DNA of 64,000 nt from a virus: positions 1-64,000 of IMG/VR virus record IMGVR_UViG_3300046804_004006, one strand, 5' to 3'. The notes beneath the pieces were generated by a model, which had not been told where the DNA came from, did not search any database, and saw nothing but the letters and a program-made list of their open reading frames with translations. Shown one piece after another: positions 1,052-63,237 of this stretch (position 1 is the stretch's first letter; every line of letters starts with the position of its first letter). The translations under genes and the position numbers were made by a program.

Positions 1052-1216
1052 ATGACTTATTCGGCAAGAAAAACAAACACTCTTACTGATGCAGAGTTTG
1101 CTGAAATGATAGCACTTAAGAATGCAATTAATGATAATCCTGCATCTGTACACCCAGAGAAACAAGAAGAATTTACTGCATATTTGGTAAGAAGTTTAAG
1201 AGAAAGAGGTGGTTGA
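1052..1216 (+). CDS. Small hypothetical protein (54 aa)
   Basis: ATG-initiated frame with GGAGC about 10 bases upstream. The encoded peptide is short, helical and polar, with no recognised motif. It ends just before the late-promoter-like octamer at 1215, which overlaps its stop codon. Function unknown. Confidence 0.55.
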   Translation: MTYSARKTNTLTDAEFAEMIALKNAINDNPASVHPEKQEEFTAYLVRSLRERGG

Positions 1217-1222
1217 TAAATA
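1215..1222 (+). promoter_or_regulatory. T4-type late promoter, GATAAATA
   Basis: GATAAATA matches the T4 late consensus TATAAATA at seven of eight positions and lies 25 bases before the ATG at 1248. The same spacing recurs before the virion genes, so this gene is probably read late. Confidence 0.6.
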
Positions 1223-1247: not shown

Positions 1248-2123
1248 ATGCTAGATGAGGGAAGAAAGAGAGATGCTGCCGCAAATGCTGTTCTAGCATT
1301 ATCATTTGCCGCAAATGCAGCACAATCACCACAATCATTAATTAGTTCTGGAAAGGATTCTGCTCCAGGATTTGCAAATATGCAAAGATTGATGGACCCT
1401 CGTAAAAAAAGAAAGGATTTAGATTTACAAAGAGTTTCTCATTCAGCAAGAAATAGTAAATTAAAAACTTTTAAAGAATTTGTAGAAGAAGCATATTTGA
1501 TTGAAGAAAGACAACAACATTTTTCAAGTAAGGAAGAATTAATAAAACATTATGGGGGTTCTATGCCGTCACACTTATACCCCAAGAATAGAGGAAGTAA
1601 AGTAAATCCAAAATGGGGTATTGGTAGTAGAGAAGAAAGAGAAAAGACTCAAGCAAGAAGAAAAGAAAATATTAAAACATCCACAGGAAGTTTGACAAGA
1701 AAACAAAAATCTAAAGTAGAACGCAAACGCACTCTTGCAGCACAAAGAGGAAAAGAACTTCATCACGGAACTGAAGTTTCTACTTCAGCAAAACAGATGA
1801 GAAATATGTCTCCTGGAGAAAGATTGAGATTTAAAAGTAAAGAAGCAAAAAAGAATAGGTATCACGGAAATGACCCAAAAAATTTAGTTCTTGCTAATAA
1901 GGGGTCTGTTGATACTTTTAAACCAGAACAACCTGGATTTCATCACGGCAAGTATCATGCATTTGAAAGAAAAAATAGAGCAAAATTAAAAGACACGGAA
2001 CATATTCTCTCACCATCTCGTGCTTTTACAACATTAGTAAATAAAGAGAGAAGAAAAATTAGAAAATCCAAAGAGTTGCAAGCAAGAATGTCTGCTGCCG
2101 CAGATAGGCAAGGGATTAAATAA
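1248..2123 (+). CDS. Putative packaged HNH-like protein with internal capsid-targeting sequence
   Basis: Lys/Arg-rich 291-residue protein. Residues 72-82 read LKTFKEFVEEA, nearly the T4 capsid-targeting peptide MKTYQEFIAEA, but here it is internal, after about 70 residues. The codon there is TTA, so it cannot be an alternative start. After about residue 165 the order ELHH... HGNDPKNLVLANK... HHGKYH resembles the HNH nuclease spacing (His-His, Asn, His-His). VEE|A is near the gp21 cleavage consensus. A late promoter precedes it and two further CTS genes follow. Inference: a basic, possibly nucleolytic protein packaged into the head. The HNH reading is tentative and there is no proof of activity. 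Confidence 0.8.
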   Translation: MLDEGRKRDAAANAVLALSFAANAAQSPQSLISSGKDSAPGFANMQRLMDPRKKRKDLDLQRVSHSARNSKLKTFKEFVEEAYLIEERQQHFSSKEELIKHYGGSMPSHLYPKNRGSKVNPKWGIGSREEREKTQARRKENIKTSTGSLTRKQKSKVERKRTLAAQRGKELHHGTEVSTSAKQMRNMSPGERLRFKSKEAKKNRYHGNDPKNLVLANKGSVDTFKPEQPGFHHGKYHAFERKNRAKLKDTEHILSPSRAFTTLVNKERRKIRKSKELQARMSAAADRQGIK

Positions 2124-2144: not shown

Positions 2145-2600
2145 ATGAAGACCTTCAAAGAGTTTCTAGAAGAAGCAACCCTTTTTGAAATGCGTAAAGA
2201 GGATAAAGTTGCTGGAAAGAAAAAGACTCCACTTCACACAATCATTAAGTCTGCAAGAGTTGAAAGACAACCAGAAGGCAGTGGCACTAAGTGGAAGGTT
2301 CAAAAGTCTGAAAGAAAGACAGTTTCCCAGGGTGCTTCAATGGGAAGATATAAGCAGGGGATGCTTGATAAAGAAACCAATCCTTTTGGTTCAAGACATG
2401 AAGTTGCTGGAACATATAAGAGACATCCACATGGTGGTGGTGGATATGGAGCAGCAGCACCTGGTGTTAAGAGAGGGGTGAAGAGAACTGCTACTATTCA
2501 ACAAAGAAGAGAAAGACCTTTTAATGCAGGACCAACACCAGCAGAGAAAGTCGCATTAAAGAAAGCAAGAAGAGCACGTTCAACGGGTGGTGGTTATTGA
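2145..2600 (+). CDS. Internal head protein candidate with N-terminal CTS
   Basis: Begins MKTFKEFLEEA, aligning residue for residue with the T4 capsid-targeting sequence MKTYQEFIAEA found on IPI, IPII, IPIII and Alt. LEE|A fits the gp21 protease consensus (Leu/Ile-x-Glu followed by a small residue). The remaining ~140 residues are strongly basic, Gly-rich in the middle (residues ~98-110) and lack a recognised fold, as expected of a DNA-associated packaged protein. Its TGA overlaps the next ATG by one base, coupling it to another CTS gene. Function after packaging is unknown. Confidence 0.85.
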   Translation: MKTFKEFLEEATLFEMRKEDKVAGKKKTPLHTIIKSARVERQPEGSGTKWKVQKSERKTVSQGASMGRYKQGMLDKETNPFGSRHEVAGTYKRHPHGGGGYGAAAPGVKRGVKRTATIQQRRERPFNAGPTPAEKVALKKARRARSTGGGY

Positions 2601-3448
2601 TGAAAACCTATCAAGAGTTTATTTCAGAAGCAAAGAAGTGTTGGCCTGGATATAAGAAGAAAGGCACACAGAAACTCTTTGGAAAGACTTATAATCGTTG
2701 TGTGAAAGAAGAGATTGAAGAACTTGAAGAAAGTTCAACTGGTGAAAGAAGTGGTAGAAGAACCAGAGGCAAGGTGACCCTTGCTCGTGGTCGTGGTGCT
2801 GATATGAGTAAGAGTGAAAGAACCACTGCTGCTGTTGCAAAGAAAGCAGGACTCAAGGGAACTGGTAAGTATTCCACCAAAGATTTGAGGTCTAAAGCAA
2901 AAGACTATACAACTTATGATAGTGAGGATACAGAAGATGATATTGGTAGCACCGAGCAGGATCATTATATCCGCACCCATTCGTCAGCAAGAAAAGCAGC
3001 AAAAGGTGAACAACTAATCAAGAAATACAAACCAGCAGGAAGAACTGCAACTGGAATGACTAAACTCAAAACTGCACCTTCAAGTGAAAGTGTAAGAAGA
3101 GTGAAAGACTTGAAAAAGCAAATGACAAAGACAGGTGCAAAGAAAACTGGAAGAGTCCATACTGTAGATATTATGCACCGAGATAGTGATGTTGGTAAAG
3201 GTGATAAACATCAACAAATGGAAAGAGGAAGGAACTTCATTGCTGCCGTGAAGGATACTCCTAAACAATTAAAAAAGGCAGGAGCAAAGAGTGGTGAAGC
3301 AGTAGTGGGAAAACCAACTGCTGTAATGTCTGGTGAAGATAAGAAGACTGGTGAAGCAAAGAGAGCAAAACTTTATAAGAAAGCATTTGGTAAAAGAAGT
3401 AGTGAAAAGTCTCCAAAAACTGGATTGATGGTTGGTAAAGCAGACTGA
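2600..3448 (+). CDS. Internal head protein candidate with CTS and CWPGYKK motif
   Basis: The first 11 residues, MKTYQEFISEA, differ from the T4 CTS by one residue; ISE|A is a good gp21 cleavage site. Next comes a CWPGYKKKGTQKLF motif with a second Cys at NRCVKE, repeated in the 632-residue protein at 51751. The rest (282 residues in total) is Lys/Arg/Ser/Thr-rich and low complexity. I chose the ATG at 2600 over the TTG three bases earlier because it places the CTS at the N-terminus and gives a TGATG junction with the previous gene. Likely packaged in the capsid; precise role unknown. Confidence 0.85.
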   Translation: MKTYQEFISEAKKCWPGYKKKGTQKLFGKTYNRCVKEEIEELEESSTGERSGRRTRGKVTLARGRGADMSKSERTTAAVAKKAGLKGTGKYSTKDLRSKAKDYTTYDSEDTEDDIGSTEQDHYIRTHSSARKAAKGEQLIKKYKPAGRTATGMTKLKTAPSSESVRRVKDLKKQMTKTGAKKTGRVHTVDIMHRDSDVGKGDKHQQMERGRNFIAAVKDTPKQLKKAGAKSGEAVVGKPTAVMSGEDKKTGEAKRAKLYKKAFGKRSSEKSPKTGLMVGKAD

Positions 3449-51609: not shown

Positions 51610-51751
51610 ACAGTTTCAAGAAGACTGGAGTAATAAATACAAGAAGAGTATTGATTGCTCGAATCCAAAAGGATTTTCTCAGCGTGCTCATTGTGCCGCA
51701 AGAAGAAAGAGAGCAAAAGGTGAAGAGACTAAATCAAAACCAATTGAGTAA
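51596..51751 (+). CDS. Small CTS-bearing basic protein (51 aa)
   Basis: Begins MKTFKQFQEDWSNKYKK, aligned with the T4 capsid-targeting sequence though without a clean gp21 site. It continues CSNPKGFSQRAHCAARRKRA, a Cys-pair motif I have seen in other marine-phage small proteins. It overlaps gp16 by 14 bases and its TAA overlaps the next ATG by one base. Likely co-assembled into the head; function unknown. Confidence 0.75.
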   Translation: MKTFKQFQEDWSNKYKKSIDCSNPKGFSQRAHCAARRKRAKGEETKSKPIE

Positions 51752-53649
51752 TGCCCCAAATCAAGTCACATAAAACAGTCGAACAAATTGCAAAGAAACA
51801 TCGTCTTGATGTTTCTTTCATACAAAAGCAACTTGATATGGGTGAACCCATCGAACATGAACATACAAAAGATCATGAACTTGCAATGGATATTGCACTT
51901 CAACATCTTGATGAAATTCCAGACTATTATACTCGTTTGAAAAAAATGGAAGCAGATGCCAAAAAGCATCATAAAAAATTTAAAGATGTAAAAGAAGAAA
52001 CTAAATCTGGAGATGAAGGTCTTCACGATTGGTTTAATAAATCAAAGTCAAGTGACGGTAAGAAAGGATGGGTTCAACTTGGAGGAAAGTGGGCAGGAAA
52101 ACCTTGTGCTCGTCAACAAGGTCAAACTTCCACCCCTAAGTGCGGAAGTTCTAAGATGAGTAAAACACTTTCTAAAGACGAAGAAGAAAAAGCAAGACGT
52201 AGAAAAAATATTCAAGACCCAAATCAACCAGAAAAAACTGGCGGAGCAAAACCAACTAACGTAAGAACTGAAGAGATGAATCTACAAGAAGTTAAAGACA
52301 AACCAGGTAAAAGTAGTGGCAAAAAAGATGCTTGTTACCATAAGGTAAAGTCTCGTTATAGTGTTTGGCCTAGTGCGTATGCATCTGGAGCACTAGTCAA
52401 GTGCCGTAAGGTTGGTGCAGATAACTGGGGAACCAAGTCCGAAGCAATGGAAGAACAAAGATATTGCCCATTATGCGATAAAAGAGAAACTAGATCCGAA
52501 TGTTCTTACGGGGGAAAGGCGTGGGATAAAGTTTCTGTAAAAGATCATGAGTATTCAATGGCTAGGTCTGAAATTGAATCTATTATAAATGCAGCAGAAA
52601 GACTTAAATCAAAAGTTGCAAAAGGTGAGGGCAGTCTCGAAGCATGGGTCCAGTCCAAAATAACTAAAGCTGCGGATTATATTGATACTGCAGCAGATTA
52701 TGTTGCTAGTGGAGAAATGGAAGAATCGGTTGGTTATAAAATAAATCCAGAATCTCATTCGTCGCAAAAATTATCATCAGCGGCAAAAAAAATTGATAGG
52801 ATGACAACAACACAACAAGCACAATTGCCACCAAAAGCAAAGCAAATAGTCGGCACAACTTTACCTAAATTTGAAGAAACCCTAGTTGATAAAATTACAA
52901 GTGAAATTGTAATCGAAAAATGCTGGCCTGGTTATAAAAAGAATGGTATGAAAATAATGTTTAGGAAAAGTTATCCAAATTGCGTAAAAGTAGAGGATGT
53001 AACTATTGAGGATGCAGATGGAAATACTTTCGCGGAAATAGTTGATATAATTAATCCTGAACTTATCAGGGGATTTAAGTCTCAAGTAGATGAGGCGACT
53101 AGGATGCAAGCACAAACCGGAAATGTAATTTCAGCGACTCTTTCATGGAGAGGAAAATATTACTCACTTAAATTGTTTTTCCCTCAAGTCAAACTTCCCA
53201 CTCGCAAAGAAATTAACGATGAGATTCAAAAAGTTTATCCGAATTGTAATTTAGTGTATCATTCTGTATCTGAACTTCAACCAGGACAACCTCTTATTCA
53301 GGCGTTTGGTCCACAAGGTGGAAGTTTTGCAAGTCCGGGACCTAGTAAAAAATATATAAAACCTTATGGCGAACAAGTGGAATTTGGGGAGGATTGGCAA
53401 TCAGTCAATCGTAAAGATAAAACTGATGGGTTAAGTCAAAAAGCGGTAAATGCATATCGTAGAGAAAATCCAGGATCAAAACTTCAAACCGCAGTAACTG
53501 AGAAGAATCCAAGTGGAAAAAGAGCACAACGTCGTAAGTCATTTTGTAGTCGTATGTCTGGAATGAAGAAAAGATTAACTTCGGCAGAAACTGCAAGAGA
53601 TCCAGATTCAAGAATCAATAAAGCACTTCGTCGTTGGAATTGTAATTAA
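51751..53649 (+). CDS. Mosaic virion/internal protein (632 aa)
   Basis: A chain of small modules. Residues ~38-65 (HTKDHELAMDIALQHLDEIP) resemble DUF5661. A GGKWAGKPCARQ...PKCGSSKM Cys motif lies at ~110-130. Residues ~192-220 (ACYHKVKSRYSVWPSAYASG) resemble DUF5872. A CPLCDKR...C segment follows (~235-250). CWPGYKK is at ~391, shared with the 2600 protein. A SATLSWRGKYYSLKLFF domain (~461-500) is related to the 60356 protein. The C-terminal KSFCSRMSGMKKRLTSA...RWNC resembles DUF6321. Lys-rich linkers join them. It sits between the terminase genes; probably a virion or core protein, role unknown. Confidence 0.8.
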   Translation: MPQIKSHKTVEQIAKKHRLDVSFIQKQLDMGEPIEHEHTKDHELAMDIALQHLDEIPDYYTRLKKMEADAKKHHKKFKDVKEETKSGDEGLHDWFNKSKSSDGKKGWVQLGGKWAGKPCARQQGQTSTPKCGSSKMSKTLSKDEEEKARRRKNIQDPNQPEKTGGAKPTNVRTEEMNLQEVKDKPGKSSGKKDACYHKVKSRYSVWPSAYASGALVKCRKVGADNWGTKSEAMEEQRYCPLCDKRETRSECSYGGKAWDKVSVKDHEYSMARSEIESIINAAERLKSKVAKGEGSLEAWVQSKITKAADYIDTAADYVASGEMEESVGYKINPESHSSQKLSSAAKKIDRMTTTQQAQLPPKAKQIVGTTLPKFEETLVDKITSEIVIEKCWPGYKKNGMKIMFRKSYPNCVKVEDVTIEDADGNTFAEIVDIINPELIRGFKSQVDEATRMQAQTGNVISATLSWRGKYYSLKLFFPQVKLPTRKEINDEIQKVYPNCNLVYHSVSELQPGQPLIQAFGPQGGSFASPGPSKKYIKPYGEQVEFGEDWQSVNRKDKTDGLSQKAVNAYRRENPGSKLQTAVTEKNPSGKRAQRRKSFCSRMSGMKKRLTSAETARDPDSRINKALRRWNCN

Positions 53650-60192: not shown

Positions 60193-60354
60193 ATGGATGA
60201 TCTTTTAGATATGATTGCATCTGATGAGTCTCCCGCACAGATTAGTGATAAGATTAAAGAACTTTTATTCACAAAGTCTGCTGAAAAAATTGACGAATTT
60301 CGCCCAGCAGTTGCAATGAATATGTTTGGTCAAGAGGAACAAGAAGAGGAATGA
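60193..60354 (+). CDS. 67: Prohead core protein gp67-like (53 aa)
   Basis: Short acidic protein ending in a Glu tail (FGQEEQEEE), with AAKSIDKIKE-like helices before a FRPAVAMNMF segment. Position directly after gp20, size class and acidic tail match gp67 of T4-type phages (80 residues in T4). A core component removed by the gp21 protease. Assignment relies strongly on synteny. Confidence 0.75.
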   Translation: MDDLLDMIASDESPAQISDKIKELLFTKSAEKIDEFRPAVAMNMFGQEEQEEE

Positions 60355-60355
60355 T

Positions 60356-60676
60356 ATGAAATCTTTCAAGCAATTTATCTCAGAATCAGTTAATATTGCT
60401 GGCGATTTCACAGGAAATCTTTATATTGGTGCTCAATCAGAACAACCACAGCAAGTCGGTGAAGGATATGTTGCCGACGTAATGTGGCAAGGAAGTTTAT
60501 ATCGTTTAGAGTTAGTAACTAAAACTGGAGTTCCTTCTCCAAGAGAACTAGGTGAGCAACTACAATCTGATTATCCGGGTGCTGTTGTTCATCAAATTTA
60601 TCCAGTGATGGAAAAAAACTTTAATATCAAAAACGTACAAAGATACCACCCATCAAAGTTAGAATGGATTGATTGA
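60356..60676 (+). CDS. Core/internal protein candidate with CTS (106 aa)
   Basis: Begins MKSFKQFISESVNIAG; ISE|S fits the gp21 cleavage rule and the leader aligns with the T4 CTS. The rest (VADVMWQGSLYRLELVTKTG; PSPRELGEQLQSDYPGA) is a compact alpha/beta domain related to residues ~461-510 of the 51751 protein. It takes the place of T4 gene 68 between 67 and 21. Unlike the other CTS proteins it is not especially basic. The ATG lies one base after the gp67 stop. Confidence 0.8.
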   Translation: MKSFKQFISESVNIAGDFTGNLYIGAQSEQPQQVGEGYVADVMWQGSLYRLELVTKTGVPSPRELGEQLQSDYPGAVVHQIYPVMEKNFNIKNVQRYHPSKLEWID

Positions 60677-62586: not shown

Positions 62587-63237
62587 ATGAAACTCATCAC
62601 CGAAGAAATTGAATCAGTAGAAGTTATTACCGAAAATGTAAACGGCAAAAAAACTCTTTACATTCAAGGACCTTTCCTTCAAACTGAACAACCTAATCGC
62701 AATAACAGAATATATCGTATGCCTGTTATGGAAAGAGAGGTTAAGCGTTATACTGAACAATATGTGAATAAAGGGCGTGCTCTTGGTGAGTTAGGACATC
62801 CCGATGGTCCAACAGTAAATCTTGATCGAGTTTCTCATAAAATCGTATCTCTTACTCAAGAGGGAAATAATTTTATTGGTAAAGCACAGATTCTTTCCAC
62901 ACCAATGGGTAAGATTGCAGAGTCACTTCTTAAAGAAGGAGTAACTCTTGGAGTTTCTTCTCGTGGTATTGGATCCGTAAGACCAACTAAAGAAGGATAT
63001 AATGAAGTTGGTGAAGATTTTATGCTTGCGACCGCTGCTGATATTGTAGCGGATCCTTCTGCACCTGATGCTTTTGTTCAGGGAATTATGGAAGGTAAGG
63101 AATGGGTGTGGGATGGTGGAATGTTAAGAGAAAAGGTTGCAGAAAACACACAAAGAAGAATAAATACTCTAGTTAATGAGGGTATTCTTGAGGAATATAA
63201 GTTATCGCTATTTAATGAGTTTTTAAACTCATTGTAA
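62587..63237 (+). CDS. 21: Prohead protease gp21
   Basis: The 216-residue assembly protease (T4 gp21 is 212) contains ALGELGHPDGPTVNLDRVSH with catalytic His71 and TLGVSSRGIGS with Ser124/125, the herpesvirus-like serine protease arrangement. It cleaves prohead core and CTS leaders after Leu/Ile-x-Glu. I chose the ATG after the 62034 gene's stop because it begins a typical MKLITEEIE N-terminus. Confidence 0.94.
   Translation: MKLITEEIESVEVITENVNGKKTLYIQGPFLQTEQPNRNNRIYRMPVMEREVKRYTEQYVNKGRALGELGHPDGPTVNLDRVSHKIVSLTQEGNNFIGKAQILSTPMGKIAESLLKEGVTLGVSSRGIGSVRPTKEGYNEVGEDFMLATAADIVADPSAPDAFVQGIMEGKEWVWDGGMLREKVAENTQRRINTLVNEGILEEYKLSLFNEFLNSL

Follow-up and report, generated by a model that had tools for sequence, protein, structure and literature searches.

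The 291-aa protein encoded near the start of an IMG/VR viral fragment is, in our assessment, rather likely to be a packaged, protease-processed, and probably injected nuclease of predicted HNH/EndoVII-like type, carried by a T4-like cyanophage within a system of exchangeable cassettes. The protein consists of a prefix of ca. 71 aa, an internal T4-type capsid-targeting sequence (CTS), and an HNH-like cargo (Table 1), and the parts most conserved among its relatives were the CTS and the His/Asn residues of the cargo.

Results

Source virus and expression class of the gene

The stretch of DNA analyzed here (the window) comprises positions 1–64,000 of IMGVR_UViG_3300046804_004006, and the full record is a 72.6-kb viral fragment. 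The terminase of the record showed 84–86% identity with those of marine Synechococcus and Prochlorococcus T4-like phages, and the source virus appears to be a T4-like cyanophage. The window also encodes a portal and a tail tube protein. Downstream of the window, the record contains two ORFs assigned by reading and synteny, one Glu-rich and scaffold-like and the other coding for a gp23-like major capsid protein; the N-terminal part of this capsid protein contains FLTE|A, the expected gp21-type processing site.

An ATAAATA-type motif was found 15–50 nt upstream of 11 of the 37 listed gene starts in the window, against a mean of 0.4 and a maximum of 4 starts in random placement (n = 2000), and the late-promoter-like motif occurred 22 times on the plus strand and 3 times on the minus strand. 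In nearly all relatives, such a motif preceded the prefix gene by ca. 30 nt. Based on these statistics, the 291-aa gene is probably a late gene, like the head genes. The motif in front of its ATG also supports the start at 1248 as real. In ten contigs (L003, L014, L022, L031, L061, L069, L071, L072, L058, and L009), a strong hairpin with a trailing T-run, immediately upstream of the prefix gene, carried (A/C)TAAATA in its loop, as in GACCTCTGATAAATAATCAGAGGTCTTTTT; this arrangement resembles a terminator with a promoter in its loop, and the strong hairpin is absent from the window copy.

Table 1 Features of the window related to the 291-aa gene.
Feature	Position	Strand	Remarks
Late-promoter-like motif ATAAATA	1216..1222	+	32 nt upstream of the ATG at 1248
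291-aa gene (prefix, internal CTS, and HNH-like cargo)	1248..2123	+	ATG start
Prefix, residues 1–71 (ca. 71 aa), M-L-D-E-G at start	1248..1460	+	
Internal CTS LKTFKEFVEE|A, residues 72–82	1461..1493	+	T4-critical positions invariant; pN/pS 0.25
Candidate second protease-type site L84-I85-E86	1497..1505	+	Position conserved among relatives
HNH-like core, residues 169–247	1752..1988	+	HH172–173 strand, YHG205–207, N212, strand 213–217, helix 233–247 (H233, H237)
Next CTS gene, MKTFKEFLEEA N-terminus, MRKEDKV cargo	2145..2600	+	In other contigs, cargo directly behind the prefix
Third CTS gene, MKTYQEFISEA N-terminus	2600..3448	+	
Small CTS-like protein MKSFKQFISES	60335..60676	+	Between portal and head genes
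gp21-type prohead protease, candidate processing enzyme	62587..63237	+	Pfam Peptidase_S77, E 4e-34

Conservation of the internal CTS and of a protease-type site behind it

The initial annotation had noted a CTS beginning at residue 72 with a TTA codon and had argued against a missed start. Codon 72 is TTA (Leu), and KTFKEFVEEA occupies residues 73–82. When the window ORFs of at least 60 aa were searched with a CTS regular expression, four genes matched, and the other three have the CTS at the N-terminus. Across 22 prefix rows, K73, T74, F75, F78, and E81 were invariant, position 79 was V or I, and position 72 was free. Mutagenesis in T4 assigned CTS positions 4 and 7 to targeting and positions 8 and 10 to processing (PMC9026906), and these critical positions correspond to F75, F78, V79, and E81 here. 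In the same rows, the CTS segment had the lowest pN/pS of five segments (0.25) and the highest pS. Judged by these substitution patterns, the internal CTS is real and under purifying selection, and the reading of its position and first codon was borne out. A missed internal start at residue 72 was rejected because this position is mostly non-Met among the relatives (Met in a minority and K, R, L, G, Q, or N elsewhere).

T4 internal proteins carry the CTS at the N-terminus. It starts at residue 72 in the 291-aa protein and is N-terminal in 7 of the 37 distinct HNH relatives described below. We know of no precedent in T4 in which a CTS functions 70 residues away from the N-terminus, and this counts against the packaging reading.

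In T4, gp21 cleaves after L/I-X-E (PMC9026906). VEE81|A82, the cleavage site initially proposed, departs from this rule with Val at P3. L84-I-E86 fits it, the P1' residue being Glu in the window protein and Ala in many relatives. Of 39 prefix proteins, 34 had a second [L/I]-x-E no more than 8 aa from the CTS; elsewhere in these proteins, the background was 0.3% of 8-aa windows. LIE86, just past the CTS and overlooked by the initial annotation, appears to be a better candidate protease site than VEE|A. The prefix itself starts with M[LI]xE[GA] in all 41 prefix proteins, and residues 2–5 match the gp21-type [LI]xE|[AG]. A Peptidase_S77 (gp21-type) prohead protease gene was found in the same genome (Table 1).

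Loss of the CTS start Met in the window copy and in most prefix relatives would fit a relic of gene fusion within a late, non-packaged protein. We consider such a relic improbable, because purifying selection acts on CTS positions 4, 7, 8, and 10 while position 1 is free, and because the second protease site is conserved.

A divergent HNH-like domain as the cargo

HH172–173, N212, HH232–233, and H237 are all present in the 291-aa protein. In a 35-row alignment, H172, H173, S180, Y205, H206, G207, N212, and H233 were invariant, while the remaining cargo diverged to 22–30% identity, as expected for an active site. The full-length AlphaFold model (mean pLDDT 82; >90 over most of residues 90–210 and ca. 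80–86 near the last helix) placed a strand at 169–173, a strand at 213–217, and a helix at 233–247, an order of elements that fits a ββα-metal site. A shorter domain model was poor in this region. In a Foldseek search against BFVD, whose matches include M4SQZ7, the best match was unnamed (E 5e-5), and the second and third were HNH proteins by name (E 0.025 and 0.063).

Searches of Pfam, PHROGs, and NCBIfam with the 291-aa protein gave nothing significant. Relatives gave weak matches to Pfam AHH and HNH_2, all below the gathering cut-off (best AHH score 20.0 bits against a cut-off of 22.3, in relative L032), and consensus sequences still scored below the Pfam cut-off. No HNH chain was found in PDB by sequence searches, and Foldseek and VIA searches with the full and domain models gave no HNH chain or fold match there. 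With the sub-threshold Pfam scores and no PDB match, the domain is a divergent, unproven HNH. The initial proposal of an HNH-like C-terminal half is supported by the invariant residues, the order of the modeled elements, and the names of the BFVD matches. Neither of the two refuting conditions proposed with it was borne out: the His/Asn residues were kept by the homologues in the 35 rows, and the full-length model showed the element order of a ββα-metal site, while the PDB searches gave no fold match. Taken together, we regard it as likely that the cargo is HNH-like and a working nuclease.

The cargo may instead be CTS-targeted and packaged without being an active nuclease, its HNH-like fold serving a DNA- or metal-binding or inhibitory protein, such as an anti-restriction protein like T4 IPI–III. 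Besides the sub-threshold HNH evidence and the missing PDB fold match, this agrees with the remaining cargos of the array, which are unknown basic proteins, and with T4 Ip1–3, anti-restriction proteins each of which inhibits GmrSD type IV restriction enzymes (PMC12373910). It is set against the invariance of every catalytic-type His/Asn residue amid the divergence of the cargo, and we judge it unlikely.

Further members and look-alikes of the domain were observed. In L124, L126, and L032, the same HNH family forms the C-terminal end of unrelated, larger proteins that have no CTS. In L008:3001-3781, stop codons break the HNH part, reflecting a decayed gene or a sequencing error. The prefix cargo of L052 and L061 was considered as a second HNH-like form from a KHV.DH.QP ... 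N pattern seen by eye, and was rejected for want of Pfam support.

Exchange of cargos behind a fixed prefix

About 50 IMG/VR contigs contained relatives. In tblastn searches against 50,697 GenBank phages, the 291-aa protein, the prefix consensus, a type-B HNH part, and the CTS-free relatives L032 and L124 gave no match, and a CTS-HNH N-terminal query gave only chance-level matches. A plasmid search with L125 gave no match, and a scan of genome contigs found no bacterial relative.

Since our alignment A3 includes rows found by CTS patterns, the unbiased count is that obtained with an HNH-only pattern (YHG..N, no CTS used), which gave 37 distinct relatives. The CTS was present in 34 of them: 24 with the prefix and an internal CTS, 7 with an N-terminal CTS, and 3 with a CTS after another N-terminal module; the other 3 had none. 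L105, one of the 7 with an N-terminal CTS, has Tyr instead of Glu at CTS position 10.

The module order in the relatives was the prefix of ca. 71 aa (M[LI]xE[GA]), the CTS, and the cargo. The cargos behind the same prefix included HNH type A (as in the window), HNH type B (AHHITP...), a third HNH-like form (L016 and L070), the MRKEDKV protein, and others. The prefix gene occurred once per contig stretch examined and headed a series of CTS genes in tandem; the exception was L086, with one CTS gene ahead of it. The later genes of the array have a plain N-terminal CTS.

Prefix and cargo differed in their relationships. The window protein and that of L036 were 94% identical in the prefix and 26% in the HNH part, and the comparison with L069 gave the reverse pattern (48% and 65%, respectively). 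At the DNA level, L006 and L016 were 93–100% identical from upstream of the gene to ca. nt 240, at the CTS, and ca. 50% identical thereafter; L009 and L026 showed the same drop at the CTS. Several relatives still have the Met of the captured cassette at the joint (KMKTF). A prefix tree gave 17 changes of cargo type (minimum 6), with many forks left open because it is based on only 73 columns. From these comparisons of sequence, the prefix is a constant module belonging to the first gene in an array of CTS cassettes, and the cargo that follows it is swapped from genome to genome, features overlooked by the initial annotation.

Mobile HNH genes are common in phages, and this cargo does move between contexts. 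One alternative is that a free-standing HNH endonuclease of the homing or mobile kind came to lie behind a CTS through a chance fusion. We consider it very improbable, given that 34 of the 37 distinct relatives keep the CTS, that the locus is a fixed array behind a late promoter, and that the breakpoints lie at the CTS and not around the HNH part alone.

Modules of this kind were also seen elsewhere. A 632-aa multi-module protein (window 51751-53649) contains DUF5661 and DUF6321; by eye, one of its modules also forms the N-terminal part of L097, ahead of an internal CTS and HNH part, and its CWPGYKK motif recurs in the third CTS gene (2600-3448). The cultured freshwater phage S-SRM01 (MW015081.1 81722-84158, L127) has CTS-like genes (MKTFQEFQES and MKSFSQFQED) near homologues of window genes, and this stretch contains no prefix gene or HNH relative.

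Discussion

We favor the reading of the 291-aa protein as a packaged nuclease, in which it would be synthesized late together with the head proteins and recruited into the prohead core by its internal CTS. The gp21-type protease would then cut at VEE81|A82, LIE86|E87, or both, which would free the nuclease inside the head and leave the CTS on the prefix; before cleavage, the prefix could keep the nuclease inactive. The released nuclease would be packaged with the DNA, injected into the host, and there cut host or rival nucleic acid or counter a defense. Late expression, CTS recruitment, cutting by gp21, packaging, and injection are each known for T4 internal proteins. Given the anti-restriction activity of T4 Ip1–3, a defense-related role for the cargo is plausible by analogy. 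At this locus, the prefix and the late promoter occupy a fixed first position, and the CTS-cargo units are swapped, probably through recombination within the CTS or beside it.

Against the packaging reading, a free nuclease in the head would endanger the phage's own DNA. When Ca is added to T4 heads carrying staphylococcal nuclease, infectivity is lost (PMC9026906), and a natural packaged nuclease must therefore be restrained, whether by the absence of metal, by modification of the DNA, or by its choice of substrate.

The closest known systems are T4 IPI, IPII, and IPIII, which share the KT[FY]..F.xE|A tag, including its critical positions, the late class, and a conserved tag before unrelated cargos, and are processed by gp21 in T4 (PMC3012670, PMC9026906, PMC12373910). 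Unlike these, the CTS here is internal behind a conserved 71-aa prefix, the cargo is HNH-like, and several CTS genes stand in tandem. In engineered T4 CTS/IPIII fusions with staphylococcal nuclease or EcoRI, a nuclease behind the tag is packaged, processed, and able to act (PMC9026906); those fusions are artificial, with an unrelated nuclease and an N-terminal tag or carrier. AHH and HNH_2 nucleases (PF14412 and PF13391) have the same HH ... N ... H order (E 0.00068 and 0.021 for the best relatives), but all scores were below gathering, and the conserved YHG and the long insertion between HH and N are particular to the proteins described here. Polyvalent proteins with DNase domains (P1 DdrB-like ParB) are likewise phage proteins of several modules for which packaging and injection have been predicted (PMC5512222), but have other domains and no T4-type CTS logic. 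In the open-licence literature, we found no paper on a CTS together with HNH, and nuclease cargo behind the T4 CTS was found only as engineered fusions and not in a natural protein.

That the cargo behind a CTS can be exchanged is already established in T-even phages. New in the present case are a CTS placed inside the protein after a conserved prefix, a tandem array whose first position is fixed, and the HNH-like cargo. More tentatively, and with the odds in our view somewhat against it, T4-like cyanophages may keep at one locus a swappable arsenal of packaged effectors, in which the prefix and internal CTS would form a zymogen-like carrier, the nuclease would be freed only in the head by the prohead protease, and the CTS would act both as a sorting tag and as a recombination joint.

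The arrangement suggests that a CTS can work from the interior of a protein, a point of relevance to cargo recognition by the prohead core. If the packaging reading is true, cyanophages would deliver nucleases and other effectors along with their DNA, and the CTS array would serve as a simple sequence marker by which many other effectors of this kind could be located.
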